A stretch of DNA of 41,140 bases from Candidatus Methylacidiphilales bacterium (GTDB lineage: Bacteria > Verrucomicrobiota > Verrucomicrobiia > Methylacidiphilales > CAZTYG01), in the NCBI GenBank assembly GCA_033875315.1, contig JANRJG010000018.1, positions 1-41,140 of the forward strand, given 5' to 3'. How positions within the stretch are numbered: the stretch's first letter is position 1; each line of letters begins with the position of its first letter. The notes beneath the pieces are model-generated. The model had not been told where the DNA came from and searched no databases. It saw only the letters and a list, made by a program, of their open reading frames with translations. Shown piece by piece: positions 8,755-39,874 of this stretch. Position numbers and translations under genes: made by a program.

Positions 8755-8792
8755 AATTTTGTTTGCGATTTCTCCATCATTATCCATTTGCG

Positions 8793-11968: not shown

Positions 11969-11975
11969 GCCGCCC

Positions 11976-14873: not shown

Positions 14874-14884
14874 ATCCATCCACT

Positions 14885-16767: not shown

Positions 16768-16768
16768 T

Positions 16769-17461
16769 ATGAAAACCACCCCCATCCCATCCATCCCATC
16801 GATTCCCACCCTCCTCCTCGCCATCCTCGCGCTCTCCCTTGGCCCCACCCGGCTGCCCGCCGCCGACAAGGTCCCGCTGGTCACCGAATTGCCCAAGCCC
16901 CTCATCATCGGAACTCCGGTGCCCATGAAGGTGGAGAACCTTGAAGCCCCCCGCAGCGGCAAACGCCCCGATTTCCTCGTCCCGGCCACCGCCAAAAACC
17001 TCGCCCTCAAAAAACCCGTCACCAGCAGCGACCCCCAACCGCTCCTCGGCGATCCCGAACTGGTGACCGACGGCGACAAGGACGGAGCCGAAGGCAGCTA
17101 CGTCGAACTGGCCAAGGGCACCCAATGGGTTCAGATCGATCTCGGCAGCCCGGCCGAGATCAACGCCCTCCTTGTGTGGCACTTCCACGCCCAGGCCCGC
17201 GTTTATTACGGTGTCGTGGTCCAAGTGTCCAATGACCCTGACTTCATTTCCGGCGTGACCACCGTTTTCAATAACGACATCAAGAATGTCACCGGCAAGG
17301 GTGCGGGCAAAGATCCCACCTATGTCGAAACCTATGAAGGCCGCCTCATCGATGCCAAAGGAGTGAAGGGTCGCTACGTCCGGCTTTACAGCCAGGGAAA
17401 CACCGCCAACGCGATGAACCATTACATCGAGGTGGAAGTGTGGGGCACCCCGGCCAATTAG
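16769..17461 (+). CDS. Secreted discoidin (F5/8 type C)-like domain protein
   Basis: The 230-residue product begins with a signal peptide (MKTTPIPSIPSIPTLLLAILAL...LPA). The C-terminal part, about 75-228, resembles a discoidin/F5-8C carbohydrate-binding fold: NLALKKPVTSSD at the entrance, ELVTDGDKDG, QWVQIDLGSPAEINALLVWH and RYVRLYSQG. Such domains bind glycans. The gene starts 2 bases after the second Tat oxidoreductase (TGATATG), so it may supply substrate binding for that exported enzyme. No catalytic residues are evident. It is the last gene of the cluster, and a hairpin lies about 40 bases after its stop. Confidence 0.75.
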   Translation: MKTTPIPSIPSIPTLLLAILALSLGPTRLPAADKVPLVTELPKPLIIGTPVPMKVENLEAPRSGKRPDFLVPATAKNLALKKPVTSSDPQPLLGDPELVTDGDKDGAEGSYVELAKGTQWVQIDLGSPAEINALLVWHFHAQARVYYGVVVQVSNDPDFISGVTTVFNNDIKNVTGKGAGKDPTYVETYEGRLIDAKGVKGRYVRLYSQGNTANAMNHYIEVEVWGTPAN

Positions 17462-17498
17462 GGCGTTCTGCGTTTGATCTGCTCATCGTTGTCGTACT

Positions 17499-17523
17499 CT
17501 TTCTCTCGGGGATGGAGAGAAAG
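17499..17523. terminator. Hairpin after the oxidoreductase cluster (possible terminator)
   Basis: CTTTCTCTC at 17499-17507 pairs perfectly with GAGAGAAAG at 17515-17523 across a 7-base loop. It lies in the 109-base gap between the discoidin-like gene and the next gene. No T-run follows, so it may be a weak terminator or an mRNA-end structure rather than a classical intrinsic terminator. Confidence 0.4.
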
Positions 17524-17570
17524 GGCACAAGATCGAGTAAGAGAAACGAGTGGGAATGGCTGCCAATTGA

Positions 17571-19088: not shown

Positions 19089-19942
19089 AGGACGCCCCCC
19101 TTGTCCCCACCGTGGTCCATCGCCACGAGGCCATGGCCACTTGGTTCGAAGTGCGCCTGGCCACAGACGACCCCGCCTACGCCGCCGCGGCCGCCCGCGA
19201 AGTTTTCCGGTTGGTCGACCGCTGTGAATCCCTGTTGAGCCGCTACCGAGAAGACAGCGAGATTTGCCAGATTGGGCGACTGTCCTCCGGGCAAAGTTTG
19301 CGTTTGTCCTTGGAAACCTTTGCCTGCCTGCGTTTGGCTCTGGATCTCAGCCAGGCCACCCACGGGGCTTTCGATCCCGCACTGGGTGCACCCGAACCGG
19401 ACCAACCCCTGCCGGAGCAGCGTGGTCGTATCATACTGGACGGAGCCACCCTCACCGCCACCCTCGAGGGTCCCCCGGTTCATCTTGATCTAGGTGCCAT
19501 TGGCAAGGGCCATGCCCTTGATCTCGGGGCGGCGATCCTACGGGAATGGGAAATGGACCACGCCCTGCTGGTGGCGGGAGGCAGCAGCCTTCTCGCCCTC
19601 GAAACCCCACCCGGGCGGGCGGGGTGGGAGATTGGCCTGAGCCATGATTCGGGCATTCTCTTGAACGATGCCGCCCTCGGAGCCTCGGGTGGAGCCGTGC
19701 AGGGCCCCCATATCCTTGATCCCCGCACCGGTCAACCGGCCCACCGGCACCATCGCACTTGGGCCCACGCCGGTTCGGCCGCAGAAGCCGACGCCCTTTC
19801 CACAGCGGCCATGTTGCTCACAGAAGATGCCCTGCGGGAGATCACAATCAGCCATCCCGCTTGGAGCTTTGCCTGGCTGGATCGGGAAGACCAGTCCAAA
19901 CCGGAGAGTGTCGGTACCTTTCCGCTGTTACCCCATGCGTAA
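19085..19942 (+). CDS. apbE: FAD:protein FMN transferase (ApbE-like)
   Basis: The 285-residue product transfers FMN from FAD onto Thr/Ser of target flavoproteins. Motifs are present in order: HRHEAMATWFEVRL at the start, SLLSRYREDSEICQIG, ATHGAFDPALG, and the nucleotide-binding LDLGAIGKG at 134-142. Near the end AEADALSTAAMLL carries the metal-binding Asp. Length is near the family norm. There is no signal peptide or lipobox, so this copy would act in the cytosol, unlike many exported ApbE proteins. Its start overlaps the Agl23-like stop by 4 bases. No obvious flavinylated partner (FMN-binding or PepSY domain) lies in the window, so its target must be elsewhere. Confidence 0.85.
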   Translation: MKDAPLVPTVVHRHEAMATWFEVRLATDDPAYAAAAAREVFRLVDRCESLLSRYREDSEICQIGRLSSGQSLRLSLETFACLRLALDLSQATHGAFDPALGAPEPDQPLPEQRGRIILDGATLTATLEGPPVHLDLGAIGKGHALDLGAAILREWEMDHALLVAGGSSLLALETPPGRAGWEIGLSHDSGILLNDAALGASGGAVQGPHILDPRTGQPAHRHHRTWAHAGSAAEADALSTAAMLLTEDALREITISHPAWSFAWLDREDQSKPESVGTFPLLPHA

Positions 19943-19945
19943 CCT

Positions 19946-20794
19946 ATGCATAACCAAGCAAGCACCATGAATTACCAACTCCACGCCGCTGCCAATCACT
20001 TGGAAGTCACCCGCGACGGCCAGCCCGTCGGCCTTTACCACACCGGCGACCCCTTCAAGCCGCATTGGCACCCGTTGCGTTCGCCCGCGGGCCACATCGT
20101 CACCCTGGCCCGGCCGCACGACCACCTCCACCACAAGGGCCTGATGTATGTGCTGCGCACCAGCCGCTACAATTTCATGGAGGAGGCGAATCTCCGACCC
20201 GGTGAGGAAGTCGGCCGCCAGATCCATCTGCGCTTCGAGGATGTGGTATCCGCCGGCCCGGCGGTTTCCTGGACCGAACATCTGGAATGGCGCGGCGGGG
20301 CCGGACACGAGCCGGTCTTCCGGGAAATCCGCCGCCAAAATATTTCCACCGCTCCCTCCGGCGGCCTTCTGCTGGCCTGGCACTCCAGCCTGACCGCGGT
20401 CTCCGACCTGAGCCTGATCCAAAGCGAATGGAGCCGCCCCAACAAGGACGGCGTCCTGATCAATTACCATGGCCTGGTCATCCGCCTGCCCCGCGAATGG
20501 TGTGGCACGGGGAACTTCGGCTTCGCCGCCGACGGGGTGCCAATGCCCGCCGCCGATGCCTTCGGCACCCGGGTCCGGGAGGCCACTTACTACGGCGCCA
20601 TGGACGGCCCGGAGGAGCTGACCTTCGCCTCGGTCACCTTGCGCCAACATCAGGACCACCGACTCTGCCTGCGCGACGCCCCTTTTGCCTGGATGACGAT
20701 GGGACCGACCAATGGCGGCCCGCTGGAGATCGCCGCCGGCCATGTGTTCGAGGAACGCTACGAAGTGGAAATCCGCGACGGCAAGCCGTTTTGA
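19946..20794 (+). CDS. PmoA-like (DUF6807) family protein
   Basis: The 282-residue product starts 3 bases after the apbE stop; a second ATG (MNYQL) 7 codons later is equally possible. The His-rich stretch RPHDHLHHKGLMY and the beta-rich body, with an aromatic-His sequence near its end (FAWMTMGPTNGG), match the family annotated as 'methane oxygenase PmoA', now DUF6807. Despite that name, it is unrelated to the membrane methane monooxygenase. Members occur beside carbohydrate and Gfo/Idh genes in Verrucomicrobia and Bacteroidetes; their reaction is not established. The His cluster could bind a metal. There is no signal peptide, so it is probably cytosolic. Confidence 0.8.
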   Translation: MHNQASTMNYQLHAAANHLEVTRDGQPVGLYHTGDPFKPHWHPLRSPAGHIVTLARPHDHLHHKGLMYVLRTSRYNFMEEANLRPGEEVGRQIHLRFEDVVSAGPAVSWTEHLEWRGGAGHEPVFREIRRQNISTAPSGGLLLAWHSSLTAVSDLSLIQSEWSRPNKDGVLINYHGLVIRLPREWCGTGNFGFAADGVPMPAADAFGTRVREATYYGAMDGPEELTFASVTLRQHQDHRLCLRDAPFAWMTMGPTNGGPLEIAAGHVFEERYEVEIRDGKPF

Positions 20795-20815
20795 TTCCTA
20801 AGCCGAAAAATTCAG

Positions 20816-20983
20816 TTCACCGCTAAGGACACGAAGATCGCAAAGTAAAACTCCGGGCAAGGAGAGATTTATAAAGCAATTTAATTGCTTTGCCGATGCA
20901 TTGAGACACATGGATCGGTGATTCGAGCATAGACCTACTACAAGCCCTAATTACTTCGCGACCTTGGCGCACTTCGTGGTGGA
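20816..20983. repeat. 168-bp element with about 33-bp inverted ends
   Basis: The left end 20816-20848 and the reverse complement of 20951-20983 resemble each other: both begin TTCACC or TCCACC, contain a (G)ACACGAAG or CGCCAAG core, then TCGC(A/G)AAGTAA. Between them is a hairpin, AAAGCAAT-TTA-ATTGCTTT (20873-20891). It fills the intergenic region between convergent genes and looks like a small non-coding dispersed repeat or MITE-like element. No open frame of note is inside. Copy number in the genome is not visible. Confidence 0.45.
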
Positions 20984-21004
20984 CTGCCTTCTTCCGTCTT
21001 AGGC

Positions 21005-22549
21005 TCAGGAAAAACGGAACGGCCCGAAATCGGCATAGCCTCCGGGGGCGCTGTCCTTCCGGCGGGAACAAAACAAGCCCACCCTCGCCCCCATCCATCC
21101 GCCCTCGCGGGTGACGTAGGTCTCCAGCACCGGATTCCACGCTCCGGCCCCGGCGGCATAACTGAACCGGCAAAGCGCGTGCGGGAAGACTTCCATCCTC
21201 AGACTGACCACGGGCTCCCCCCAATCCACCGTGCGGAGCGGCCGGGTGTCGGCGGTCATGCGGAAGACACGCGCCCCCGCCTTCTGTTCCAGGCCGATGA
21301 AGGCCGATCCCCCGCCCCCGACCACCGCCAGGCCGGCCACCCCATCCCCGGTCAGGCCGGAAAGATCGAGCACGGTTTCTACCGCGAACGAACGGGCCGG
21401 GAATTTCTGCCCGAGAAAATGGGGACAGCGACCAATGTCGTCGCCGTCATCTTCTTGGGCGAAAAGGCGCAGCCAACCCGGCCGGGCCGCGGGCGAAACC
21501 CATTCCGGCCGGTGGTTGGCCTGCCATTGCCACTGCAACCCTAACTTCTTCGAAGAAAAGTCATCCGACGAGGCCGGGATGACGACCGGCCCCGGGGGCA
21601 GGTCCGGCTTCCGATGGACGGCCACCGGCTCACCGATGCCATTGCCATCGTGGTCGAGGCCGATCTTCGGCCATCCGTCCTCCCAAGAGACAGGTTGGAG
21701 GTGGACGATGCGGCCAAAAGGCCCGCAGTCCTGGAAATGAAGGAACCACCACTCGCCGTTGGGCAGATCCACCAGGGCCCCTTGGTGCGGGCCGTTGACT
21801 GCCGTGACGCCGGTTTCCAGGACGATTTTCTCCTCGTAGGGGCCCCAGATCGAAGAGGAACGAAAGGCCACCTGCCAGCCATTCTGGACCCCGCCACCGG
21901 GTGCCATGAGGAGATACCTGCCGCCCATCTTGTGCATCTTCGGTCCCTCGAGATAGGGGTGGTGCGGGGTGTGGATGACTTCGCGGCCCTCGCCCAGCAG
22001 CCGGGTGCAGTCGGGCGACATCGGACGGATGTGGATGCGTTCTTTTTTTCCCGCCCGGGAATTGGCGTAGGCGTGGAGCAGGTAGGCTTGGCCATCGTCG
22101 TCCCAGAATGGACAAGGATCGATCCAGCCCTTGGCTTCCTGCAGGCACCAGGGTTCGCTCCATTCTCCCCCGGGATGGTCGGCGCTGGTGACGTAGATGC
22201 CCTCATCGGGCATGGGGAAAAAGATCCAGAATTTGCCCGCGTGATGGCGGATGGCAGGAGCCCAGACCCCGCAGCCGGGCCTGACCTTCTCATAACTGGG
22301 ATGCGGCACCTGTCGCAGGGCATGGTTTACCAGGCGCCAGTTGACCAGGTCCTTGGAGTGCAGGATGGGCAGGCCGGGTGTGCAGGTGAAACTCGACGAC
22401 GTCATCCAGAAGTCGTCACCCACGCGGATGACGTCCGGGTCAGAGTAGTCGGCGTGGATCAGGGGGTTGAGGTAGGTGCCATCGCCCCGGTCGGGAATCC
22501 AGGGATAAGCGCGGGCGACGGAGGAAACAGGAACGCCCGGGGTTACCAT
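21005..22549 (-). CDS. Glycoside hydrolase family 43 protein (beta-xylosidase/alpha-L-arabinofuranosidase type)
   Basis: This 514-residue protein has an N-terminal five-bladed GH43 propeller (about 24-330) and a C-terminal beta-sandwich of about 150 residues like the one in GH43 beta-xylosidases. The three catalytic acids can be assigned: Asp37 in YSDPDVIR (base), Asp144 in GWIDPCPF (pKa modulator) and Glu201 in YLEGPKMH (acid). No signal peptide is seen, so it may act in the cytosol or be exported another way. The ATG overlaps the stop of the upstream pseudopilin gene as ATGGTAA, without its own Shine-Dalgarno, so translation is coupled. The exact linkage cleaved (xylan, arabinan or other) is not resolved. 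Confidence 0.86.
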   Translation of the reverse strand: MVTPGVPVSSVARAYPWIPDRGDGTYLNPLIHADYSDPDVIRVGDDFWMTSSSFTCTPGLPILHSKDLVNWRLVNHALRQVPHPSYEKVRPGCGVWAPAIRHHAGKFWIFFPMPDEGIYVTSADHPGGEWSEPWCLQEAKGWIDPCPFWDDDGQAYLLHAYANSRAGKKERIHIRPMSPDCTRLLGEGREVIHTPHHPYLEGPKMHKMGGRYLLMAPGGGVQNGWQVAFRSSSIWGPYEEKIVLETGVTAVNGPHQGALVDLPNGEWWFLHFQDCGPFGRIVHLQPVSWEDGWPKIGLDHDGNGIGEPVAVHRKPDLPPGPVVIPASSDDFSSKKLGLQWQWQANHRPEWVSPAARPGWLRLFAQEDDGDDIGRCPHFLGQKFPARSFAVETVLDLSGLTGDGVAGLAVVGGGGSAFIGLEQKAGARVFRMTADTRPLRTVDWGEPVVSLRMEVFPHALCRFSYAAGAGAWNPVLETYVTREGGWMGARVGLFCSRRKDSAPGGYADFGPFRFS

Positions 22550-23325
22550 CGGTAGTAGAGACGGTTGGCAGAGTCGTAACTATCATATTCCGGATGGGCC
22601 GGAATGGATTGATCACCAGCTATCGACTCAACGTGAAAATCTGCAAAGAGATAATAAGCCTTGCCATCGCGCGAAACCCGATTGCTTGTCTCTATATTAT
22701 CCTTAAAGACAGCAGATTCTCTCGGGATAAAATCATGTCCACCATTTCGGTTTTTTTCACCAACGAGCACTAGCTTACTGCGATTGGGAGACTTGGATAT
22801 GCTGCCGTAAAACGGACTTGCCCCAGGCACATTGTTTGCCCACAAAAATTGGTTCATTCCCCAAGCAGTTCCCCAGTAATACTGAGTATTGGAGTTATAA
22901 CTCTTACCTGCGGGCATTTTGGCAAAAGTCTTCGAATACCAGACCGAACGTCGTTGCCAGTTGTATTGCGATGAAGTGTTGAATTTGCCGTCGGGCGGCA
23001 TCATGCGGTCCACGTCTTCCATAAAGTTGGCGTCCGCGTGCCCTTTAGTTGGAGACGGATCGTCTAGCATCTCACCATTTTTGGAAGAATAGCGGTTGTT
23101 CGGTAGTCTTCCTTTATCTGCCTCAAAATTGGCGAGGGCCTGCCCGATTTGCTTCAAATTATTCAAATCATTGGTATTGGCCGCCGCCCGGAGAGACTTC
23201 TGCAGGGCAGGAAGGGCCAATCCGGCCAGTAGGCCGATGACCACAATCACCACCAAAAGTTCAACCAAGGTAAAACCTGAAATTGTCGCACCTCGTTCAA
23301 TGGCACTACGCAGGTTGCTTTTCAT
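22543..23325 (-). CDS. Pseudopilin with DUF1559-like C-terminus (type II secretion/type IV pilus-like)
   Basis: The 260-residue product has a class III leader, ATISG-FTLVELLVVIVVIGLL, with Glu at mature position 5, followed by the long N-terminal helix (LPALQKSLRAAANTN). This matches GspG/PilA-type pseudopilins. The C-terminal part contains YYLFADFHVESIAG, an H-x9-DG-like motif as in DUF1559 proteins that are very abundant in Planctomycetes and Verrucomicrobia. The soluble domain is AT-richer than the flanking genes. It overlaps the GH43 gene (ATGGTAA) and lies opposite the cassette A gene across a 185-base divergent region. It may present or help secrete the coupled enzyme; that is an inference. 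Confidence 0.86.
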   Translation of the reverse strand: MKSNLRSAIERGATISGFTLVELLVVIVVIGLLAGLALPALQKSLRAAANTNDLNNLKQIGQALANFEADKGRLPNNRYSSKNGEMLDDPSPTKGHADANFMEDVDRMMPPDGKFNTSSQYNWQRRSVWYSKTFAKMPAGKSYNSNTQYYWGTAWGMNQFLWANNVPGASPFYGSISKSPNRSKLVLVGEKNRNGGHDFIPRESAVFKDNIETSNRVSRDGKAYYLFADFHVESIAGDQSIPAHPEYDSYDSANRLYYRW

Positions 23326-23510: not shown

Positions 23511-26500
23511 GTGGTGACGCTAAAACATTTACTTTGTAAATCTAAGGTATGGATATCTGCCTTGGGTCGTGAGCGTTCATCGGGGTTCGTTTTGGTCTCG
23601 GTGCTGTTGTTGTTGGCACTGGTCACGGTCTTGGTGGTTTCGACCCTGCTGATTTCGCAAATTGAACGCCGCGCGGCGGCGCAATCGGCCAAAACCGAAT
23701 CGGCCCGCCAGAATGCGCTATTCGCCCTGGACGTGGCGCTCAACCAATTGCAAAAAGAAGCCGGCCCCGACCAGCGCATCACCGCCCGGGCAGACATCCT
23801 CGACAGCACCCCCTCCAGCAGCACCATCGAAGGCGTCAACCAACCCTACTGGTCCGGGGTGTGGAAGACCGGCAACGCCTCGTTGGACGTGGGGGCCACC
23901 CCACAACGCACCACCAGCCTGGGCAGCCTGACCCCGACCGCGGCGGACAAAGCAGGCAAAGCCGCCTGGCTGGTTTCCAACCCCGCTCCCTCGACCCCGA
24001 TCAGCCCGCTGACCTGGACCGGCTCCACCACCGGCAACAGCACCACCCGCACAGCGGTGGTCATGGCCAGGCGATACGGCTCCTCCAGTGCCACCGTGTC
24101 CGTGCCGCTCGTACCCGTTCTGGGGAATGCCTCCGCCAGTACCACCAACGCAACCGGCGGCTATGCCTATTGGGTCAGCGATGAGGGCATCAAGGCCCGC
24201 GCTAATTTGTATAATCCCAATCTAGATGCGCCTACTTCCAGCCGCCTGGTTGAGAGTCAACTTCAGTTCTTTGCTCCTTCTGCACAAGCAGTTCACAAGT
24301 TTTTACCCTCACCATTCAATATCGATTTTCGCGGCAATGCTACACTTGTGCGAGTGGTGACTTTGCCGGCGATCCGTTGGCTGACTTCGAGCGGCGCAAC
24401 TGTTTTCGATGCGCCTGAATTTGAGCCAGACATGACCCTGTATAGCGCAGGCGTTTTGGCTGATGTTCGCAATGGCGGATTAAAAAAAGACCTAACGGCC
24501 GCATTCGAAGACGGACAAGGAGCCTTCTCTTCCGGAAATATGAGCCGTTTGTTGGCGTTTTCCAATAACTTGAACAATTTTACCAGTACTCCGAACAGCG
24601 GCAAGGTTTACGCTGTTACACCCATCAGCGGGAGTTACTTCAACGGTTACGCCAATGGGCATGCAATTGATGGTATGAGGTGGATGTCACTCTATAATTA
24701 CTACAATCTTTACAAATCCAGCGCAACAACGCCATCTGGATTGACCGCCAGTGGCACCAGTCCAAGCGGTGTTGGCAGTCCTTCCGCATCACCTATCCTG
24801 CAGGTCCGCAACTACAACATTGACGGGAATTTTGAGGGAACAAGCAACGCCAACCGGCTCATCAGGGACAACATTAGCGCACGTGTCATCGGCTGGCAGA
24901 TGCACATAGGCATCCAAAGCTATCAGGATGCCATTGATAGCCGCTGGAAAATCAAACTGCTGATGATGCCAGGCCTGGTTCTCTACAATCCCTACAACGT
25001 CCGATTAACCCACCAATCCGATTTCCAATACCAGTGGAGCGGATGGTACAATTTGAACGCCGGCTTCGACACGCTTCAGTTCGCCCTGGGAAGCAATACC
25101 CCAGCCAACCAATTCAATATCAATCCGCTGCAAAATTTTTCTCTGAGCGCAAACGGCGCTCAAGGTGATTTGGGTGCAGGTGTAACGAGCAATGGATTTG
25201 CTACTGCCGCAAACGCTGCCATCACCATGGAACCGGGTGAGATCAAAATTTTTGGCCTCAACCGAGTAGTCGACCCGGCAATAGGCAGCGACAATTTCGG
25301 GACCCTGCAAAACTTTTTTAGCCCGGATTTTTATCATGCCATTGATCTGAAGAGGATACCACTGACGATGTGGAGTGCAGGAGCAAACACAACGAACGGC
25401 ACTGTTTTTCACGGCACTGCTAGCGGGGCAGATTCTGTTCTTCTACGAAGGGTCTTTCCTCGCATACGCACGAACGATGGAAGATTCAATGCACACTACA
25501 GGCTGCCCAATTCCTCGCCTAACCCTGCTACGGGTGCTTGGAATCTTTGGCCCCAAGGCGGCTCGACTGGCAGCCAGTATCTCACCCAGATGTATCTCAA
25601 TGACATTACAGTCACCCCCTTGGCTTCTCCACTCAACTTGGGCCCCATATCCTCCCTGACCCAGCCCATTAAATTCATGACTTACACAGTTTGGATGAAG
25701 GGAACAAACAGCGCGCAAGACCTTGACGGTAGTGGGACGATTGTAGCCCGACCGGCTCCGGTTTTTGCGTCTGCGGGCAGTCTCTGGAATCCAATCGGAA
25801 CGGATATACGAAATCCCCCCATCGACTTGCAGGTTTCCGTGGGCCGCTTTCCGATGGACAAAGCGAGTTTGAACTCGACTCCCGGCCCGGCATCCAGTGT
25901 GCGTAGTTACTGGGGTGACTCAGTAACGGGAGGAGAAACGCAAATTGTTTTGAAAGAAGTGCCCAGGCAACCGTTGATCTCGTTGGGGCAGTTTATGCAT
26001 AGCAATCCGTCCTACAACCCCAACCGTTCGGGTTCGGTCTTGCGTAGCGCCACTCTGTATCCTGTCGGTGGATCTTGGGCTTCTTCTTTTGTGCCGCGAG
26101 ACAAGGCCGTCGAAACCAGCCTTAGCGGAATAAATACAGGTTTTAATACAGTAGGAGAGGGAGGGTCAAATGTAACGGCCATACCTATAGGCGGCCCCAT
26201 CCAATGCGTCGATGACTCCTTCCTCGCCAATCAGGCTCTCTTCGATACCTATTTCTTCTCTACAGTGCCCTCACTTTTCCAGCAATCAAACAACTCGCTC
26301 TATCCTCCGCGTAATACGGTTTTTGATTCGAGCTACGTGGCTTCGGGCAATCCCCTACCCAACAGTCGTCACCGCTTCTACTCCAAAAATGGAGTGAATC
26401 CTCAAATAAGCGCCCTGCGCGACTTCGACCGTGCGGCAGCCAGCTTAATGCTCGAAGGAGCATTCAATGTAAACTCCACATCTGTCAATGCTTGGGTGGC

Positions 26501-27239
26501 TCTGCTTTCCAGCTTGTCCAATAACAGGCTGCTCGCAACGGATGGGACGGAAGTATCCTTGAACGGACTCAATCCAATTCCACGCTTCCTCCATCCTCTT
26601 TATGGGGGCACTACTTCAGTCAATACTCCTTGGGGAGGCGTTCGGGCACTTACTGATGCGGAAGTGCGCGAACTTGCTGAAAAGATTGTGGAGCAAGTCA
26701 AGAACCGGGGCCCATTCCTGTCCATGGCTGATTTTTTGAATAGGCGACTGGTGGCCAATGGAACGAACGGTCTATACGGTGCACTTCAAGCCGCGCTGGA
26801 AGCATCCTCTGTAAACAATGCTGTCAAGGCAGCTGTGGGACGGACCACTGACATTCCCAGTTCAACCGTGGCAACTGCCATTCTTTTGGACACAACAAGC
26901 CTGCCAAGTAACACGGCTACAGGGGTGCCGGGCTACCTGATGCAACAGGACATTGTACAATGCTTCGCTCCCTTGATGTCGGCACGCTCTGACACGTTCG
27001 TTGTCCGATGTTACGGAGAAAGCCGAAACCCGGCCACAGGAACCGTTGAAGGAAAAGCGTGGGGTGAGTGCGTAATCCAACGCCTACCAGATTATGTCGA
27101 CCAAGCCGATCCAGCTTTGACCTCGGGAGCAAGCCTGGGAGACGCCGCACCATTGAATTCCCTGAATACCAACAACCAGAATTATGGACGTAGGTTTAAA
27201 GTGATTTCATTCCGCTGGCTTGATCCGGAGTCGATCTAA
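23511..27239 (+). CDS. Verru_Chthon cassette protein A; giant GspK-like pseudopilin
   Basis: This 1242-residue protein begins with GTG (23511; another GTG at 23514), with no ATG nearby. The leader RERSSG-FVLVSVLLLLALVTVLV is pilin-like but lacks Glu at mature position 5 (Ser instead), as in GspK/PilX. Near 1045-1085 the segment LTDAEVRELAEKIVEQV...GPFLSMADFLNRR resembles the helical 'GPF.S' domain of GspK. Size and context match the Verru_Chthon_A family. Usual GspK is about 320 residues, so this one is about four times longer. From about 24190 the base composition drops: 40 G/C in 24061-24120 but 28 in 24481-24540. It lies 5 bases before the next secreted-protein gene. A tip or surface role is inferred. 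Confidence 0.85.
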   Translation: MVTLKHLLCKSKVWISALGRERSSGFVLVSVLLLLALVTVLVVSTLLISQIERRAAAQSAKTESARQNALFALDVALNQLQKEAGPDQRITARADILDSTPSSSTIEGVNQPYWSGVWKTGNASLDVGATPQRTTSLGSLTPTAADKAGKAAWLVSNPAPSTPISPLTWTGSTTGNSTTRTAVVMARRYGSSSATVSVPLVPVLGNASASTTNATGGYAYWVSDEGIKARANLYNPNLDAPTSSRLVESQLQFFAPSAQAVHKFLPSPFNIDFRGNATLVRVVTLPAIRWLTSSGATVFDAPEFEPDMTLYSAGVLADVRNGGLKKDLTAAFEDGQGAFSSGNMSRLLAFSNNLNNFTSTPNSGKVYAVTPISGSYFNGYANGHAIDGMRWMSLYNYYNLYKSSATTPSGLTASGTSPSGVGSPSASPILQVRNYNIDGNFEGTSNANRLIRDNISARVIGWQMHIGIQSYQDAIDSRWKIKLLMMPGLVLYNPYNVRLTHQSDFQYQWSGWYNLNAGFDTLQFALGSNTPANQFNINPLQNFSLSANGAQGDLGAGVTSNGFATAANAAITMEPGEIKIFGLNRVVDPAIGSDNFGTLQNFFSPDFYHAIDLKRIPLTMWSAGANTTNGTVFHGTASGADSVLLRRVFPRIRTNDGRFNAHYRLPNSSPNPATGAWNLWPQGGSTGSQYLTQMYLNDITVTPLASPLNLGPISSLTQPIKFMTYTVWMKGTNSAQDLDGSGTIVARPAPVFASAGSLWNPIGTDIRNPPIDLQVSVGRFPMDKASLNSTPGPASSVRSYWGDSVTGGETQIVLKEVPRQPLISLGQFMHSNPSYNPNRSGSVLRSATLYPVGGSWASSFVPRDKAVETSLSGINTGFNTVGEGGSNVTAIPIGGPIQCVDDSFLANQALFDTYFFSTVPSLFQQSNNSLYPPRNTVFDSSYVASGNPLPNSRHRFYSKNGVNPQISALRDFDRAAASLMLEGAFNVNSTSVNAWVALLSSLSNNRLLATDGTEVSLNGLNPIPRFLHPLYGGTTSVNTPWGGVRALTDAEVRELAEKIVEQVKNRGPFLSMADFLNRRLVANGTNGLYGALQAALEASSVNNAVKAAVGRTTDIPSSTVATAILLDTTSLPSNTATGVPGYLMQQDIVQCFAPLMSARSDTFVVRCYGESRNPATGTVEGKAWGECVIQRLPDYVDQADPALTSGASLGDAAPLNSLNTNNQNYGRRFKVISFRWLDPESI

Positions 27240-27244
27240 ATTGA

Positions 27245-28039
27245 ATGAAAAATATGAACCCTTTATTTCACCTCACTTTCATGGCTTTAGTGCTCTCTGC
27301 AGCTCCAGTCAAGAGTCAGATAACTTCAGCGAAACCATCATTCAAGGCCTTGGCATGGACGGAAGATATTTCTGACCTCTATTACGCTGATAGTCATGAC
27401 ACTTCCAAAGTTCTACCAATCAGTCTTTACACTCATGCAAGATCGGACTCCTACTACTTCAACTCAGGCATGACTGTCCTGCGTTTTTTCCGCCAGAACA
27501 CCGATCCGGCCTCCAAAGAGCCTTATATTGAAGTCGCCAATGTTGATTTACAAGATGTCGGACCCAAGCCACTACTGATTTTTTTCCGTGATAAAAAAGA
27601 TCCAACCAGATATCAAATCGTGGCCTTGCCAGATGATTTGGCTTCTTTCGGAAGCGGAACCTACAAATTCGTCAATTACACAAGCGGTCCTGTGAGGATC
27701 AACCTGGGATCAGACAAGGCGGATCTTGCGCCACGCGAGGCCAAAGTGGTGAAGGGCAAGCCGCGCACCATCGCCGGCGTGCCTAACGTTCTGGATGTCC
27801 AAGTTGTGACGGGCAAACCACCACAAACTCGGCAGGCTTTCGGGAACATCTGGGCATACAAAGAAACCTTGCGCCAGCTCGTATTCATCGTTGAAACCGG
27901 CCCCGGCCCCGGCCCCATGAATGTCGAAGTGAAACGTATTTCAGAGGATCCTAATTTCGTTCCTTTGCCCCCCAAGCCTGTCACTGCTTCAGCAGCTCCT
28001 TCTACGCAAGCCAATGAGACTCCTAGCAACCCTCAGTAA
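27245..28039 (+). CDS. Secreted protein of unknown function inside the Verru_Chthon cassette
   Basis: The 264-residue product has a signal peptide (MKNMNPLFHLTFMALVLSAAPVKSQ). A beta-rich domain follows (KALAWTEDISDLYYADSH; VLPISLYTHARSDSYYF; PLLIFFRDKKDPTRYQIVALPDD), then a region with NYTSGPVRINLG and KPRTIAGVPN. The last 40 residues are Pro/Ala/Ser-rich and probably disordered. I do not recognise a named domain. It starts 5 bases after cassette protein A and is followed by the prepilin D gene, so it belongs to the same transcript. The first two thirds share the lower GC of the body of A. It may be a periplasmic partner of the pilin-like proteins. Confidence 0.75.
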   Translation: MKNMNPLFHLTFMALVLSAAPVKSQITSAKPSFKALAWTEDISDLYYADSHDTSKVLPISLYTHARSDSYYFNSGMTVLRFFRQNTDPASKEPYIEVANVDLQDVGPKPLLIFFRDKKDPTRYQIVALPDDLASFGSGTYKFVNYTSGPVRINLGSDKADLAPREAKVVKGKPRTIAGVPNVLDVQVVTGKPPQTRQAFGNIWAYKETLRQLVFIVETGPGPGPMNVEVKRISEDPNFVPLPPKPVTASAAPSTQANETPSNPQ

Positions 28040-28052
28040 ACAGGTGATCCCA

Positions 28053-28727
28053 GTGAAAAAGAATAAACATTTTAGTAAACGCAACTCCGCCTTCTCCCTA
28101 GTCGAACTGTTGGTGGTCATGGCCATCATCACGGTCATGGCCGGGGTGGGCATGGCGGTTTTCCGCGGCGGCACGGCCTCCAGTGGCGGACGCGAGGCTT
28201 CCACCATCGCCTACTCCCTCTTCAACGCCGCCCGCACCGAGGCCATCCTCCGTCAATCCCCCGCCCGCGTCATCGTCGACACCGTTTACAATTCCGGCCG
28301 GCCGGAGAACTACCTCCGCCGCATCAGCATCGCCGCCCTGCGCAGCAGGGAGGACACCACCAACCCGGCCGTGGTCCTCGATGCCGATGGCAATACCGAC
28401 CCCGCCATCGCTTCCAACTGGTCGCAAATACAGAAGTGGGTCTTCCTCTCCCAGGGGGTCTACTACGACGCGGACTACAGCAAACCCACCGGCACCATGG
28501 ACATCACGTTCGCCGGCTCGGGCGCGCCCACCAGCGGCTATGACTACTACGAATTCTCCGCCAACGGACGCGCGTCGGACCTCCAATTTGTCGTCTCACC
28601 CGGTCTTCTCGTCGGCACCCAGTTCAAGGTCAAAAACGAAGGACAGCTGCGCTACGGCTTTGTCGTCCACTTGTTGGGCCGGATGAGTTTCTTCCCCGAC
28701 GTGGCGTCGATCCCCCCCGTGCTATGA
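28053..28727 (+). CDS. Verru_Chthon cassette protein D; GspH-like minor pseudopilin
   Basis: From the GTG at 28053 the product has 224 residues, with AGGTGAT six bases upstream as Shine-Dalgarno. An ATG at 28014, overlapping the previous gene by 26 bases, is the alternative. The leader reads KRNSA-FSLVELLVVMAIITVMAGVGMAV, with Ala rather than Gly before the cleavage site and Glu at position 5. The rest is a beta-rich globular domain as in GspH/FimT. Order and size match the D member of the cassette. Its stop overlaps the start of B (ATGA), so translation is coupled. GC returns to the high level of the window. Confidence 0.82.
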   Translation: MKKNKHFSKRNSAFSLVELLVVMAIITVMAGVGMAVFRGGTASSGGREASTIAYSLFNAARTEAILRQSPARVIVDTVYNSGRPENYLRRISIAALRSREDTTNPAVVLDADGNTDPAIASNWSQIQKWVFLSQGVYYDADYSKPTGTMDITFAGSGAPTSGYDYYEFSANGRASDLQFVVSPGLLVGTQFKVKNEGQLRYGFVVHLLGRMSFFPDVASIPPVL

Positions 28728-29365
28728 CCCTTCTCCGCCAGTTTCCGAGAAGGACGGGCACACGGGGCTTCAGCCTGGTCGAAGTGGCCCTGTCCCTGGG
28801 CATTGTTGGATTTGGCATCCTCGCCGTCATCGGACTGTTCGGCGCCGCGTTGCAGTCGAACAAGGAAGTGGTCAGTCAGGACGAATCCTTTGCCGTCACC
28901 CGCACCCTGCCCGGCTTCCTCAAAGCCCAGGGATTCAACACGGTGTTTTCTTGGATCACGAGTAATAGCACCATGGATACGAGTGCTACCGCCAGCAATG
29001 CCACCGTGCCGATTTTCGCCTACCACATCGATCCAAGTGGCAGCGGCACCACCCAAAGCCTCCTGGAGGGCGGGGTGCACAGCCTTTTCATCCGCACGGG
29101 CAGCGACTCCGCCTTGGCCACCGAACTCACGCGCCGCAGCGGTCGGCTCTTCCGCATCACCCTCGGGCTCTCCCCGAACATGGCCATCCAAACCTCCGGC
29201 AACAGCAGCTATGTCGCCCGCCCCACCAGTCTGTCCGGCAACGCCACCAGCTATCCCGAAGCCGCCCTGGCGGTGCAAGTGAAAATCTACGAGGTCCAGA
29301 ACACCACCACCAATGTCGCCAAACTCAAACCCGTATTGACCTATGATGCCACCGTGCCGCGTTGA
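28724..29365 (+). CDS. Verru_Chthon cassette protein B; GspI/PilV-like minor pseudopilin
   Basis: The 213-residue product has the leader RRTGTRG-FSLVEVALSLGIVGFGILAVIGLFG. The position-5 Glu and the 'VEVALSLGI' pattern are typical of GspI/PilV-type proteins. A globular domain of about 150 residues follows, rich in Ser/Thr/Asn (TSNSTMDTSATASNATV). It matches the B member of the cassette by size and position. The ATG overlaps the D stop by 4 bases, and its 3' end overlaps the C gene by 23 bases. It is probably processed by prepilin peptidase and inserted in the inner membrane; no peptidase gene is in the window. Confidence 0.82.
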   Translation: MTLLRQFPRRTGTRGFSLVEVALSLGIVGFGILAVIGLFGAALQSNKEVVSQDESFAVTRTLPGFLKAQGFNTVFSWITSNSTMDTSATASNATVPIFAYHIDPSGSGTTQSLLEGGVHSLFIRTGSDSALATELTRRSGRLFRITLGLSPNMAIQTSGNSSYVARPTSLSGNATSYPEAALAVQVKIYEVQNTTTNVAKLKPVLTYDATVPR

Positions 29366-30179
29366 ACAACGTCGCAGTCCGCGGCGGGCCTTCACCCTCA
29401 TCGAGATGTTGGTGGCGGTCACGATCGCCGCCCTCATGGTGGTGATGATGGCCAACCTGACCAACCAAACGGCCACGGTCTCCAAGCGGGCCAACAACAC
29501 CCTCCTGGCCCTGAACGCAGCCAGTGCGGCCCTGGACCTCCTGGTCACCGATCTGGACTCCCTGGCCGCCGTGCGCGGCAGTTCGGAATTCCTCCAAGCC
29601 AGCCCTGATGCCGTGGACACAGTCAACTCGACCCGGCTTTACCTGCTCGCCCTCTCCCCGACCGATGTCACGAATGCCGACCAAGCCGGGCAGGCCCGGG
29701 CGGTTCTTTACCGGGTGGCGAAGCAGAATCCCCTGGGCAGCGGCAGTGGCAACCAGGTCTACGGCCTATACCGCACCGCCCTCAGCGCCAACACCACCTT
29801 CTCGGATGTCATTGGCCTGTCCGACCTGTCCGGCTATGCCTGGTCCGCATCGCCCGTGCGGGACGACTTCCTGGTCGGCAACGTGGCCCAATTCCGGGTG
29901 CTCTTCTACGCGGCCGGAAACAGCAGCGTCACCAACCCCGCCCCGATCAACCTCACCAGCTCCTCCTACCAATCGGTGCGCATCGCCGGAAACAATGTCA
30001 AACTCAACGGGGCCAATTACACCACCTCCACCCCCGCCACGGCCGAGATATCCCTGACCATCCTGGAGGAATCCGGCGCGCTGCTCTTCCGCAACGGCTC
30101 CATCCCCATCGACCGGGCCCTGCGCGAATTTGGCCACACGCTGACCCGCCGGGTCACGCTGCGACAGCCCTTGTTTTGA
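29343..30179 (+). CDS. Verru_Chthon cassette protein C; GspJ/PilW-like minor pseudopilin
   Basis: The 278-residue product starts at one of two adjacent ATGs inside the end of B (23-base overlap). The leader is SPRRA-FTLIEMLVAVTIAALMVVMMANL, with Glu at position 5 and Ala before the cleavage site. The long helix and following domain (LDLLVTDLDSLAAV, YRVAKQNPLGSGSGN) are like GspJ/PilW. It is last in the cassette; a short GC hairpin lies 36 bases after the stop. The gene order A, unknown, D, B, C corresponds to K, x, H, I, J of type II secretion systems. Confidence 0.82.
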   Translation: MMPPCRVEQRRSPRRAFTLIEMLVAVTIAALMVVMMANLTNQTATVSKRANNTLLALNAASAALDLLVTDLDSLAAVRGSSEFLQASPDAVDTVNSTRLYLLALSPTDVTNADQAGQARAVLYRVAKQNPLGSGSGNQVYGLYRTALSANTTFSDVIGLSDLSGYAWSASPVRDDFLVGNVAQFRVLFYAAGNSSVTNPAPINLTSSSYQSVRIAGNNVKLNGANYTTSTPATAEISLTILEESGALLFRNGSIPIDRALREFGHTLTRRVTLRQPLF

Positions 30180-30601: not shown

Positions 30602-31411
30602 TCAGGGTGCGGCATCGGGCAACGCATAAACCCGGACGTAGTCGAATTCCGCCACCGATGGCAGCGCGGCATCATCGACCTGCTTCGTGCCACCCAGATG
30701 CGAGGCGATCGAAGTCAACCAAACGTGCTGGGGTCCGTGCTCGAAGACGAAAGGCGTTCCATCTTTCCGCACCGGATTGGCCACGTCCACGGTCTGGACG
30801 GCCTTGCCTTCGAAGTCATACCGGACCGTGGTGGGAGTGAAAAGACAGCCAAAAACGTGGAACCGGGCCGAGAGATCCGGGGTCGTGACGGTTCTGCCAC
30901 CAAAATAGATGTGCTCCCCTTTCCATCGGTGAATATTGACCCCGTAGCTGGTTTTGTGGATGGAATCGTTTTCGATCACGTCCAATTCCTGGTGGGCCGC
31001 ACCAGGACCGGTGCCTCCACTTCCATTGTGCGCCATCATCCAAAACGAGGTGTGCCAACCCCCACCCGGCGGGATTTTCAGCCTCGCCTCGTAGTAACCA
31101 TACTGGAAAGCCTTCCGACTGATGATGCCGCCGCCGGTGTAGGACATGTTTCCGGAAGATTCTTTTTTCAAGTGCAACTTGAGCACGCCCCCTTCCACCG
31201 TGACGTTCTCCGGCTTCTGGGTGCTCCAATGTTTGCTGTCGGTCCGAAAGACCCACTTTGCCCGGTCCAAGACGGTGCCGTCGAATTCATCCGACCAGAC
31301 CAACCGGCTTCCATCGGGCGGCGCCGCAGGCAAAGCCAGGGGAAACATCGCGGGCAAACCCACTAAAAAACACACCACTTTATTCAACGGAACTCTGACT
31401 GTTTTTTTCAT
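30602..31411 (-). CDS. Secreted glycoside hydrolase family 16 protein
   Basis: The 269-residue product has a signal peptide (MKKTVRVPLNKVVCFLVGLPAMFPLALPA) and one GH16 jelly-roll domain. The start LVWSDEFDGTVLDRAKW is typical. The catalytic motif is HQELDVIEN with nucleophile Glu142, Asp144 and acid Glu147 (ExDxxE). Aromatic GGGWHTSFWMM lies just before it. GH16 enzymes cut beta-1,3/1,4-glucans and algal galactans such as agar, porphyran and carrageenan; the subfamily cannot be assigned here. The gene stands alone on the minus strand and is bracketed by two copies of a palindromic element (30299-30434 and 31449-31622). This suggests it may have been acquired or could be moved with them. Confidence 0.88.
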   Translation of the reverse strand: MKKTVRVPLNKVVCFLVGLPAMFPLALPAAPPDGSRLVWSDEFDGTVLDRAKWVFRTDSKHWSTQKPENVTVEGGVLKLHLKKESSGNMSYTGGGIISRKAFQYGYYEARLKIPPGGGWHTSFWMMAHNGSGGTGPGAAHQELDVIENDSIHKTSYGVNIHRWKGEHIYFGGRTVTTPDLSARFHVFGCLFTPTTVRYDFEGKAVQTVDVANPVRKDGTPFVFEHGPQHVWLTSIASHLGGTKQVDDAALPSVAEFDYVRVYALPDAAP

Positions 31412-31448
31412 ATCTTTTGATCTTCTTCTGCTTATTTAGGCTCGTTCT

Positions 31449-31622
31449 CTAATACCAAATCACATGGAGTAGGCGATAAAATGTCTTACGGGAGGGCGAA
31501 GCTCCTGGCTCCCCCGCAAGCGTGCGGGGCTGAGCCGCGTCTGCATACCGGACTGAACCCGGCTCGGCAGGAGCCTCGCCCTCCCGAAGAGCCCGTCACC
31601 CAGTCTACATCATTTGATTTTA
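31449..31622. repeat. Palindromic repeat, copy 2, flanked by direct CTCGTTCT
   Basis: The ends TAATACCAAAT and, inverted, TAAAATCAAAT match at 9 of 11 positions. Inside, 31489-31507 pairs with 31568-31586 at 18 of 19 positions (CGGGAGGGCGA core). An extra hairpin, CCCCGCA-AGCG-TGCGGGG, is in the centre. CTCGTTCT occurs on both sides (31441-31448 and 31623-31630), like a target duplication. Copy 1 has only degenerate versions of these flanks. Confidence 0.6.
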
Positions 31623-31628
31623 CTCGTT

Positions 31629-33479
31629 CTAGAACATAAGCCGGAAGGTTTGATACACGGTGGACGCCGGCTTGACCCGGCCCGGATCGGAGTATCTGCC
31701 CATTTGATAGGCACCGACGGTCACCTCGATGGGGTTTTTTGTGCCCTCCGGAATCTCGGACGGTACGAAGGCCCCTTCGCGGATGATACCGGGCCCCTTC
31801 AAGACAAAGTACCCCACCGGCAGGCCGGACGAACTGGTGGCGTTGAGTGCCACCTTTTCGACCGCGGCCGGGCTGTCGGGAATGGCGGGGAAAGTGATTG
31901 TCTGTGACGGCGCATCCTTGAAGACACCCCCCGGCCACCAGGATATCTGAACCGTCCGCCCGGCCGCGGCATGGGTAGCATCGCCTTCATGGAACACGCG
32001 CAGGAACAACATCTGGAAGCCCCCTTCCGGCGACATGCGGTATGGTTTGAACCGGAGTGTGAAACGGGTCTGCGGCAGCCCACGTTCGTCCACCGCCTCC
32101 TCACGACGGACCACTTCCACCGCACCACCGTGCGGATCGATCTGTAGGGGTATTTTATCCACGGGAAGCGTGGTTTTCCCTGGAAAAAGGACATTTTCCA
32201 GGGTGTGCGGATCGTTCGGGCGCTTGGCGTGTTCCTTGTCCTTCACCGTGCAGACCTCGAAGGGTTTGTCGAACGGATAGGTGGTCAGGGTGAACTGCCC
32301 ATCCTCCTGCAACAAAGCCTGCGGGTCCGGCATGACGGCCATGGAACCATGGGCCAGGCTGATGGGTTTCCCGGCAGGGTCGAGAAAGGTGAACATCCCA
32401 ATATCCTTGCGGGGCTCCCGGCAAACGAGATCAAAGAACGCACGGGCCAAGACCTCGTTCGGATACCAGGCGGCTTTGGCCTTGCTGCCCTTGAAGTCCG
32501 CGTAGGGCGCGGGTTGGGGGAAATCGGCGGGCAACTCCCCGGACACCGGCACGTTCGGATTGACCAACCAGCCGTCGGCCAGGACCGTCTTCTTGAGCGG
32601 ATCACCGGGCTTTTCCGGAAGCCGCATGGCCGCCACCGCATCGAGCCAGTCGGCTGTGAATTGGTAGTTTCTCGGCAGCATGTCAAAATGGCCGCTCATC
32701 ATGTCCCAGCATGTGCCGATCAGTTCATTGCGCGGTTCATACGTGGTTCCGGGGTTGTCGTCGCGGTCGCGTCGGTAGGCCCCAAAAAACGAGGCACTGC
32801 CATGCCCGTGCGGGTAGGCGCTCCACCCGACGGTCTCCTGGCTGGAGGAGGAAATAAACAGGATGGGAACATGATTCATGGCCAAAGCGGGATTGGGGGC
32901 CTTGGCCTTGCCGCTCTCGGCGTAAAAGGCGTATACGTCCGGCATACCCGCCTTGATCGGAAGAATGGCCAGGCATTGCTCTGGATTCCTCATGGCTGCT
33001 TCAAACGGGAAACTCATGTAGGCCGAATGGGCCAGCGGAACGATGGGGGCGGTCGGCAATTCCGGATGGCCGGAGACTTCGGCCAGGGCATTCAGGTAGG
33101 CATCGTAGACGGCGGTTTTGTCCGGGTTGGTGATGTCGTAGTTCAGGTCCTTCAGCATCACCGGCCCGATCTCGCTGCCATTGGGGGTGAGGAGGATCTG
33201 GGCGATGCCGTGCTTGCGGCAGACGGCGCGGATGGCGGGGTGCTGCAGGATGTTCATCGGCAGCCCGTTGTGGATGCCGACCATGACGGCCCGGATGCGG
33301 GGTGTTTTGGGTGGAATCCAGAGATAGGCACCGGAAAGGGCAGAGCCTTTCTCCAGCTTGGTCGGGACAAAGTATTGGTAGATCCGGTTGCTTTCGATGT
33401 CGTCAACGGTCGATTGGGACCTGAGGGACCCGCCAAGGGCCAGGGTGGCCAACAGGATGAGCAGGGGCTTGGTTTTCAT
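31629..33479 (-). CDS. Secreted alpha/beta-hydrolase-like protein of unknown function
   Basis: The 616-residue product starts from MKTKPLLILL, with GAGG seven bases upstream and a clean signal peptide (to about LRSQ). The first half looks like an alpha/beta-hydrolase: LWIPPKTPRIRAVMVGIHNG, IAQILLTPNGSEIG, PIVPLAHSAYMSFPFEAA with a possible nucleophile Ser in the AHSAY elbow, and VPILFISSSSQETVGW. The second half is beta-rich (YPNEVLARAFFDLV; TRFTLRFKPYRMSPEGGFQMLFLRVF) and not recognised. The elbow departs from the usual GxSxG, so activity is uncertain. It is the last gene of the fucosidase-to-hydrolase run, 8 bases after the esterase-LamG gene. A carbohydrate-esterase role is plausible but not shown. 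Confidence 0.7.
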   Translation of the reverse strand: MKTKPLLILLATLALGGSLRSQSTVDDIESNRIYQYFVPTKLEKGSALSGAYLWIPPKTPRIRAVMVGIHNGLPMNILQHPAIRAVCRKHGIAQILLTPNGSEIGPVMLKDLNYDITNPDKTAVYDAYLNALAEVSGHPELPTAPIVPLAHSAYMSFPFEAAMRNPEQCLAILPIKAGMPDVYAFYAESGKAKAPNPALAMNHVPILFISSSSQETVGWSAYPHGHGSASFFGAYRRDRDDNPGTTYEPRNELIGTCWDMMSGHFDMLPRNYQFTADWLDAVAAMRLPEKPGDPLKKTVLADGWLVNPNVPVSGELPADFPQPAPYADFKGSKAKAAWYPNEVLARAFFDLVCREPRKDIGMFTFLDPAGKPISLAHGSMAVMPDPQALLQEDGQFTLTTYPFDKPFEVCTVKDKEHAKRPNDPHTLENVLFPGKTTLPVDKIPLQIDPHGGAVEVVRREEAVDERGLPQTRFTLRFKPYRMSPEGGFQMLFLRVFHEGDATHAAAGRTVQISWWPGGVFKDAPSQTITFPAIPDSPAAVEKVALNATSSSGLPVGYFVLKGPGIIREGAFVPSEIPEGTKNPIEVTVGAYQMGRYSDPGRVKPASTVYQTFRLMF

Positions 33480-33487
33480 CGAAGTCC

Positions 33488-35134
33488 TCACAGGGGGTTG
33501 GGTGTTTTGCGTCTGGGGTCCGCCAGGGCTGCCACCTCTTCAGCGGTCAGGGCATGATCGGCCAGAAAAAGGTCGGAGAAGCGGCCCGAAAAATCTTCGG
33601 CCACCGCGACCCGGGGCCCGATCAGGACGGCATTCTGCAGGGCTTGTTCCGCCACCACCTGACCATTGATGTAGACAATGGCCCGTTCGGGGGAGACGGT
33701 GAAGGCTACGTTAACCCAACCGGAAGGCAGGGGCGTCTTGGTGGTGAGGCTGGCCCCGGCCACATGGAGGGTGAGCACGCCTCCCGGTCCGAAGACCCAT
33801 TTGCAGCCGGTTCCCGTCCCGGTGAGGGTTCCACGTTTATAGAGGGTGCCCGAGGGTTTATCCGGCAAGATCCATGAGGCCACGGTGGTGGCTGTCCCCG
33901 GGTGTGGGCATCCGGAGAGTTCCAATCCGCCCCGGCCCCGGCCCACCTGGATGACCTGTCCGCGCTGCGGGTCGGCGACCAACCCGGCCGTGGTGACCCC
34001 CGCCTTGTCCAGCGCAGGCAGATGCAAGGCCACCCCCTCCCCGGCCTTTCCAGCAATACGACCCTCCGTCATTTGGTCCCCGGCAATGCTCCAACTCCGA
34101 TTTTGCGGGGAATCAGGCTGGAGATTGGCTTTTCCCTGGAGATAACCCATCGAGACCAGGAAGGCGTCAACCGCCCTCATGGCGTCGAGCCATTCCGCTC
34201 CGGTGGAACGGTAGCCGAAGAGAATGAACGCATGCCCGGCCTTGGGCAGGGTGAAGAGGTCGCCACGCACGCCCGCAGCTTTGAGCTTGGCCTGGAATTC
34301 CGAGGAATGCCGCGGATCGACCACGCTGTCCCCCAGGCCATGCAGGAGCAGGGAGGGGGCGGCCTGTGGAGTGATGTTCCACATCGGGGAAATCGCCCGG
34401 GCACGGTCGTTGAGGCCAAGTGCTTCGTTTGCTTCCCAAAACCGCGGTGTGTTGGGGACAAAAGCCCGCCATTTGGGGTCCAGCAGGTCGGTGATGGGAT
34501 TGCAGGGAATGGTGAGGTTGGCCCGGCCGCTGACCGCGAGGTCATCCCCCGGGTTGTCAAATCGATCGATGGTACCGAGACAGGCGGCAAGGTGGCCTCC
34601 GGCGGAATCGCCGATGACGGCGATACGATCGGGGTCGATGCCGAGGCGGTCGGCGTTTTTTCTCAGGGTGCGTAGGGCCGAACGACAATCGGCCAAGAGG
34701 TCGAAAAGACTGGGGCCCTTTTCGAAGGCCTCCTTCTCATTATCCTTATCCGGGCGTGGGACATGGCGGTAGGAAATCGTGACCCCGACCGCACCACGGG
34801 CGGCGAAGTAGCGGGCGTGGGGAGCAAAGACGCCGCCGTCCCAGGCCGAGACATCCCCACCTTTCCATCCCGACCAGGCCCCACCATGGAGGCAGAGGAT
34901 GACCGGACGGCGTCCGCTTTTATCTTCCCCGGCTCTGGGCAGAAATACGGCCATGGGCAAATCGATGCCATCCACCGTTTTGTAGGCCATGCGTTCGTCA
35001 GGCAGGCGGCCATCCGAATCCAAATCCTCCGGATGGATGCGGGTTTCTGAGGCCTGCGTCCATCCCGGAACCAAACACAAGAAGGCGGCGAGGGACATGC
35101 CCAGCCAAGGCAATGGTTGAAAGGTGCCCGGCAT
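33488..35134 (-). CDS. Secreted esterase (BD-FAE-like alpha/beta hydrolase) with C-terminal LamG-like domain
   Basis: The 548-residue product starts from MPGTFQPLPWLGM and has a signal peptide. The esterase domain (about 40-320) has the oxyanion motif LHGGAWSGW (83-86), nucleophile Ser177 in GDSAGGH, probable Asp269 in LGDSVVD and His301 in KAGHAF, so the triad is complete. A LamG/concanavalin-like beta-sandwich follows at about 350-540 (TVASWILPDKPSGTLYK; VNVAFTVSPERAIVYINGQVV). Such enzymes deacetylate or deferuloylate plant and algal polysaccharides, while LamG may bind them. The ATG overlaps the stop of the large upstream gene as TGATG. It is followed after 8 bases by another hydrolase-like gene. 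The ester bond cleaved is unknown. Confidence 0.82.
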   Translation of the reverse strand: MPGTFQPLPWLGMSLAAFLCLVPGWTQASETRIHPEDLDSDGRLPDERMAYKTVDGIDLPMAVFLPRAGEDKSGRRPVILCLHGGAWSGWKGGDVSAWDGGVFAPHARYFAARGAVGVTISYRHVPRPDKDNEKEAFEKGPSLFDLLADCRSALRTLRKNADRLGIDPDRIAVIGDSAGGHLAACLGTIDRFDNPGDDLAVSGRANLTIPCNPITDLLDPKWRAFVPNTPRFWEANEALGLNDRARAISPMWNITPQAAPSLLLHGLGDSVVDPRHSSEFQAKLKAAGVRGDLFTLPKAGHAFILFGYRSTGAEWLDAMRAVDAFLVSMGYLQGKANLQPDSPQNRSWSIAGDQMTEGRIAGKAGEGVALHLPALDKAGVTTAGLVADPQRGQVIQVGRGRGGLELSGCPHPGTATTVASWILPDKPSGTLYKRGTLTGTGTGCKWVFGPGGVLTLHVAGASLTTKTPLPSGWVNVAFTVSPERAIVYINGQVVAEQALQNAVLIGPRVAVAEDFSGRFSDLFLADHALTAEEVAALADPRRKTPNPL

Positions 35135-39852: not shown

Positions 39853-39874
39853 AAGATATGGGGTGTTGGGTTAC

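Follow-up and report, generated by a model that had tools for sequence, protein, structure and literature searches.

It has long been an open question how type II secretion systems select their cargo; one of the contacts proposed is GspK, at the tip of the pseudopilus. Minor pseudopilins are placed at the pseudopilus tip, with GspK proposed to occupy the ultimate position and to contact substrates (PMC7541494; XcpVWX structures, PMC6211770). In Myxococcus, one pilus machine is served by alternative tip complexes that are encoded in distinct gene clusters (PMC7541494). No paper treating the Verru_Chthon A-D proteins, or the A-x branch described here, was found in the open-access literature searched; subscription papers may exist.

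The window (the whole stretch of DNA analysed, 41,140 nucleotides) contains, between positions 23511 and 30179, five co-directional genes, A, x, D, B and C, with gaps or overlaps of a few bases (Table 1). The products of these genes probably form the complex that primes a type II secretion-like pseudopilus and sits at its tip; in it, A would be GspK, D GspH, B GspI and C GspJ, accompanied by the Sec-exported protein x. The same layout had been read in an earlier note as K-x-H-I-J. Its assignments largely hold, but the five-gene arrangement proved to be an exception, and K-x the conserved unit.

Table 1. Positions of the genes and protein segments of the five-gene set in the window, and of the proteins following A in three other cassettes (positions within the named loci).
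Feature	Position	Strand	Description
Gene A	23511..27239	+	giant GspK-type minor pseudopilin (predicted), 1242 aa, GTG start
Prepilin leader of A	23511..23585	+	residues 1-25, cut after G25; Ser at mature position 5
GspK core of A, N-terminal part	23586..24230	+	residues 26-240: alpha1 and first strands, DEGIKARAN patch at end; pLDDT mostly >90
Insertion of A	24231..26390	+	about residues 241-960; exact boundaries inferred from sequence pieces
GspK core of A, C-terminal part	26391..27236	+	residues 961-1242: GAFNVNSTS, GPFLS, closing strands DTFVVRCYGE and RRFKVISFRWL
GPFLS motif of A	26709..26723	+	residues 1067-1071
Gene x	27245..28039	+	264 aa; predicted signal peptide and two beta-sandwich domains
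Gene D	28014..28727	+	GspH-type minor pseudopilin (by profile), 237 aa, Glu5 present
Gene B	28724..29365	+	putative GspI-type minor pseudopilin, 213 aa, with Glu5; assignment from size, gene order and elimination
Gene C	29343..30179	+	GspJ-type minor pseudopilin (by profile), 278 aa, Glu5 present
Protein after A, L032	11553-12431		sequence unrelated to x
Protein after A, L244	10809-11678		sequence unrelated to x
Protein after A, L245	2430-3230		sequence unrelated to x

The features that had first pointed to GspK in protein A were all recovered. Its leader reads ...RSSG/FVLVSVLLL (slash, cleavage site), so that the glutamate expected at mature position 5 is replaced by a serine (Ser30), and Glu5 was found in none of the 74 aligned relatives. 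The GPFxS motif announced for a helical segment near residues 1045-1085 is present there as GPFLS, one of the best-conserved segments in the family. The length, given beforehand as about four times that of a normal GspK, measures 3.9 times that of the canonical GspK of the same genome (G000:C38, 319 aa). The existence of this canonical protein led us to reject the idea that A is the sole GspK of its genome.

Relatives of A were collected by whole-genome searches and by a search of one genome per GTDB species, which returned at least 577, full-length ones among them. The 79 A loci kept were all labelled as Verrucomicrobiota lineages, and no loci related to the A set were found in the viral contigs searched. 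One locus, L045 (9432-14089, genome G094), has an A split into several frames, with its N-terminal piece on the opposite strand, which suggests a decaying copy or an inversion.

Single-sequence family searches with the proteins of the set gave matches that were mostly at the level of the leader. Against the whole-protein GspK model NF037980, A scored 22.8 bits for a cut-off of 130, over the N-terminus only; we therefore name it a divergent GspK-type homologue rather than an NF037980 equivalog. Pfam T2SSK (PF03934) was tried as a detector of GspK and rejected: it matched in 12 of 14 control genomes and did not separate GspK from helix-hairpin-helix-like matches. Profiles were more informative. 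With GspK proteins from related genomes as the target, the N-terminus of A aligned to GspK at 93% hhalign probability, and four weaker matches followed in the right order, at residues 214-236 (DEGIKARAN), 980-1003 (GAFNVNSTS), 1066-1078 (GPFLSMADFLNRR) and 1132-1175 (DTFVVRCYGE). The C-terminal A profile scored 27.6 against the GspK profile, a value reached by none of 60 column shuffles (15.2 +/- 2.4), while the middle segments did no better than their column shuffles. Short segments were used because the whole-length alignment of A to GspK, made with a very low mact, gave an uninformative global path.

The structure of A was then predicted with AlphaFold2 (residues 43-1242, 70 relatives in the alignment). 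The model had a pTM of 0.86. Its two ends mostly reached pLDDT values over 90, and its middle had low ones. Foldseek alone returned nothing significant with this 1200-residue model, the ETEC GspK chain 3ci0_K being ranked second with an E value of 0.92, and direct searches of PDB sequences with A and its 12-member profile gave nothing relevant. The decisive step was the structural realignment of the Foldseek candidates. Four of them matched with a Z-score above 5, and all four were GspK: the XcpX chains 6utu_C (10.9), 5vtm_X (10.6) and 9a1f_T (10.4), and 3ci0_K (10.2), with 222-240 of 259-295 residues aligned. The next-best match (Z 4.4) was Ig/FN3-like and confined to the insertion. Both elements of the GspK fold, the pseudopilin domain and the alpha-domain inserted in it, are present in the model. 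Structure, N-terminus and 1045-1085 segment, the comparison proposed in the earlier note, thus agree with GspK, and no mismatch was seen for A.

The insertion is predicted to comprise one or more Ig/FN3-like beta domains around residues 454-722, variable and of lower confidence, and a better conserved part around 741-960. Identity between A relatives is 43-48% at the two ends of the core and 15-17% in two parts of the insertion. As GspK structures alone matched its model above Z 5, we conclude from the sequence profiles and the predicted structure that A is a GspK fold carrying a poorly conserved insertion of about 700 residues, the limits between core and insertion being approximate.

The prepilin leaders of D, B and C are ordinary and, as previously announced, retain Glu5 (AFSLVE, GFSLVE and AFTLIE respectively). 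Profiles built from the window proteins and their relatives were compared with the canonical GspG, H, I and J of related genomes. Full-length D aligned to GspH at 98.6%, and still at 84% once the leader was removed, with at most 0.5% to G, I and J. Likewise C aligned to GspJ at 97.1% full length and 70% without leader, with at most 0.6% to G, H and I. B gave 94.9% with GspI and 95.2% with GspJ, and no signal without its leader, so that the profile alone cannot separate I from J. The mature sizes are 212, 199 and 263 aa for D, B and C, and the D-B-C-A order found elsewhere in the same genome is the H-I-J-K order of canonical operons in related genomes; given sizes and order, B would be GspI by elimination. 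By sequence comparison, then, D is GspH and C is GspJ, also in leader-free profiles. The proposed resemblance of B to GspI stands in part: the profile places it on the I/J side, and size, order and elimination point to I.

A different reading of these proteins is that they form the tip of a type IV pilus, with A as a PilX-like, B a PilV-like, C a PilW-like and D a FimU-like subunit, and a head, x taking the part of PilY1, serving as adhesin on a retractable pilus. The top NCBIfam match of B is indeed PilV (24.6 bits, above GspI at 12.8), A has a sub-threshold match to PilX_N (PF14341, 13.6 bits for a cut-off of 25.5), and PilX also lacks Glu5. The three minor pilin and PilY1 clusters that serve one machine in M. 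xanthus (PMC7541494) offer a parallel to the multiplied cassettes reported below. We nevertheless consider this reading rather unlikely, because A matches the whole GspK fold, alpha-domain included, and conserves the GspK-type segments GAFNVNSTS and GPFLS, because the match of D to GspH and that of C to GspJ extend past the leader (in a comparison with GspG, H, I and J), and because the D-B-C-A order is that of canonical gsp operons in related genomes. For D, the single-sequence match to Pfam GspH lies just below threshold (20.4 for 21 bits).

The genes had been called a Verru_Chthon cassette, and this did not hold. All four proteins fall far below the NCBIfam cut-offs, with 25.4 bits for 332.3 (A, TIGR02600), 21.2 for 51.4 (B), 28.3 for 256.5 (C) and 18.7 for 70 (D). 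Shared ancestry with the proteins of the formal cassette is nevertheless apparent from profile comparison, in which C aligned at 99.6% over 246 columns, D at 99.4% over 188 columns and B at 98.4%, and window A aligned to Verru_Chthon A at 95% at the N-terminus and more weakly in two further segments. The set is best called, on these alignments, a sister branch of Verru_Chthon and not a member. The same genome also has a formal cassette (G000:C3), in which A (970.9 bits), B (80.6) and D (82.1) are above their cut-offs and C, with 253.1 bits, is just below 256.5. Three more giant-K cassettes of D-B-C-A order lie on contigs C15, C40 and C9. In the other D-B-C-A cassettes of this genome, A is followed by a protein of 266-292 aa whose sequence is unrelated to x (Table 1).

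The neighbourhood of A was examined next. Gene calls in the relatives of A and x are mechanical open reading frames, and some genomes are drafts. Gene x was found directly downstream of A in 70 of the 94 copies with a neighbour in view, and in genome G090 all 23 x matches adjoin A or an A fragment; related genomes have up to about 23 A-x pairs each. In the window D-B-C sits with A, which gives a GspK encoded together with GspH-I-J; this does not hold for most relatives. Of the 50 A copies flanked by 4 kb or more on each side, 45 had no pseudopilin gene within 7 kb, and D-B-C was found at one locus only (L074, with two A copies). As A usually comes with x and without nearby H-I-J, the conserved unit is A-x, that is K-x, not A-x-D-B-C, and the five-gene layout is exceptional. 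The coupling is strong but not universal: no x was found next to A in two of the three K-less genomes described below (G078, G086 and G063). Genome G090 encodes five GspF-type proteins (10 domain matches), and one of its A-x pairs is separated by about 1.6 kb from a gene for a GspF/PilC-type platform protein (L247, 5851-12505).

The distance of most A copies from other pseudopilin genes, and an insertion that dominates the protein, could be taken to mean that A is an inner-membrane-anchored protein with a borrowed pilin-like leader, which takes part in no filament. We regard this as very improbable: a full GspK fold would then have no need to persist, the core residues are the best conserved part of the protein, and H-I-J is kept beside A in the window and at five other loci (L032, L043, L074, L244 and L245).

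Where H-I-J and A are apart, A may still provide the K subunit. In three genomes of one genus (G078, G086 and G063), there is a D-B-C triple that no K adjoins; the gene after it is unrelated. No GspK was recognisable in these genomes at E 1e-5, a threshold that a very divergent GspK could escape. Each has a single GspF protein, and A is present elsewhere in the genome. On this gene content, A probably supplies K in trans. The sole E-F pair of this genus adjoins one pilin gene, a point in favour of the pilus-tip reading.

Protein x matched no family in single-sequence searches. Its model (pLDDT 89.7) shows the signal peptide and both beta-sandwich domains, and the nearest folds, the extracellular domain of PepT1/2 (Z 10.6-12.8) and AlgF domains (Z 8-9), point to no function for the predicted structure. 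One may ask whether x is itself the cargo, A-x being a tip that comes with a dedicated secreted substrate of its own, and the A head a receptor for x only. The predicted signal peptide, the confident fold and the one-to-one coupling with A are compatible with this. Against it, x is a small protein without a catalytic domain, with a fold like that of binding or adaptor domains, and in another cassette of this genome the place of x is taken by a protein of unrelated sequence. We consider x as cargo unlikely, and prefer to see in it a periplasmic or tip-bound partner of A.

Two further aspects of the surroundings can be reported. A GspG-like pilin gene (22543-23325, minus strand), with a weak DUF1559 match and a top match to gspG of 47.6 bits, under the cut-off, is divergent from A at about 190 bases; at L125 a similar pilin gene is likewise divergent from its A. 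The regions on either side of the cassette (8572-22549 and 30602-41128) are rich in carbohydrate-related genes, the flanking families being GH43, GH16, alpha-L-fucosidase, esterase, 3-keto-disaccharide hydrolase, GFO/IDH/MocA oxidoreductases, ThuA and an AraC-type regulator. Across A loci, no convincing enrichment of carbohydrate or regulator genes was seen beside A, and neighbour families near and far from A hardly differ. LacI regulators were the commonest (6 of 109 close to A, 2 of 91 at a distance), a small difference. A LacI-type regulator, recognised by eye, adjoins two giant-K sets with D-B-C (L244, 4329-5429, and L074, 21393-22463).

By analogy with the known systems, A with D-B-C would prime a pseudopilus carrying a head at its tip. 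D, B and C would nest under A and so prime assembly by a shared machine, and the insertion of A would form a large head at the extreme end. We infer a tip position for A, its binding to x, recognition of a cargo or ligand, and exchange of heads: bound to x in the periplasm, the A head would meet a specific cargo, for instance a large secreted enzyme, or an extracellular ligand, and the several A-x pairs of a genome would be alternative heads on few machines. More tentatively, Verrucomicrobiota might possess a 'one piston, many heads' mode of secretion or capture, where a shared H-I-J primer and machine would be fitted in trans with many giant K proteins (up to about 23 per genome), each with its own x and a variable head for a different cargo or polymer; this is possible, but doubtful at present. 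A large variable GspK head, present in up to about 23 copies with an obligate-looking partner, would in any case offer natural variation with which to test cargo choice, and the reading gives the Verru_Chthon A-D and A-x branch families a testable role.

Compared to GspK (XcpX, PulK; PDB 3CI0, 5VTM and 6UTU), A is alike in its Glu5-less prepilin leader, in the complete predicted fold including the alpha-domain, and in its order next to H-I-J. It differs in size, with 1242 aa against about 320, the insertion being added, in a score far under the NF037980 cut-off, in having x as a partner, and in its copy number per genome. D, B and C are alike to GspH, GspI and GspJ in the D-H and C-J profile matches, in sizes and in gene order, whereas they stay under the single-sequence equivalog cut-offs, and B-I is inseparable from B-J by profile.

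With Verru_Chthon A-D (TIGR02600, TIGR02598, TIGR02599 and TIGR02596), the window set has in common a giant Glu5-less A and three pseudopilins with Glu5, and the two A proteins share the N-terminus, the DEGxKA patch and the C-terminus. The three genomes rich in formal Verru_Chthon A (G006, G008 and G123) have no x match, whereas x is the usual companion in the window branch. Minor pilin/PilY1 clusters 1-3 of Myxococcus xanthus resemble our proposal in having several alternative tip sets for one machine, with a large tip protein and a top subunit that lacks Glu5 (PMC7541494). There the head is a separate protein, PilY1, whereas here it would be built into the K-type subunit itself.
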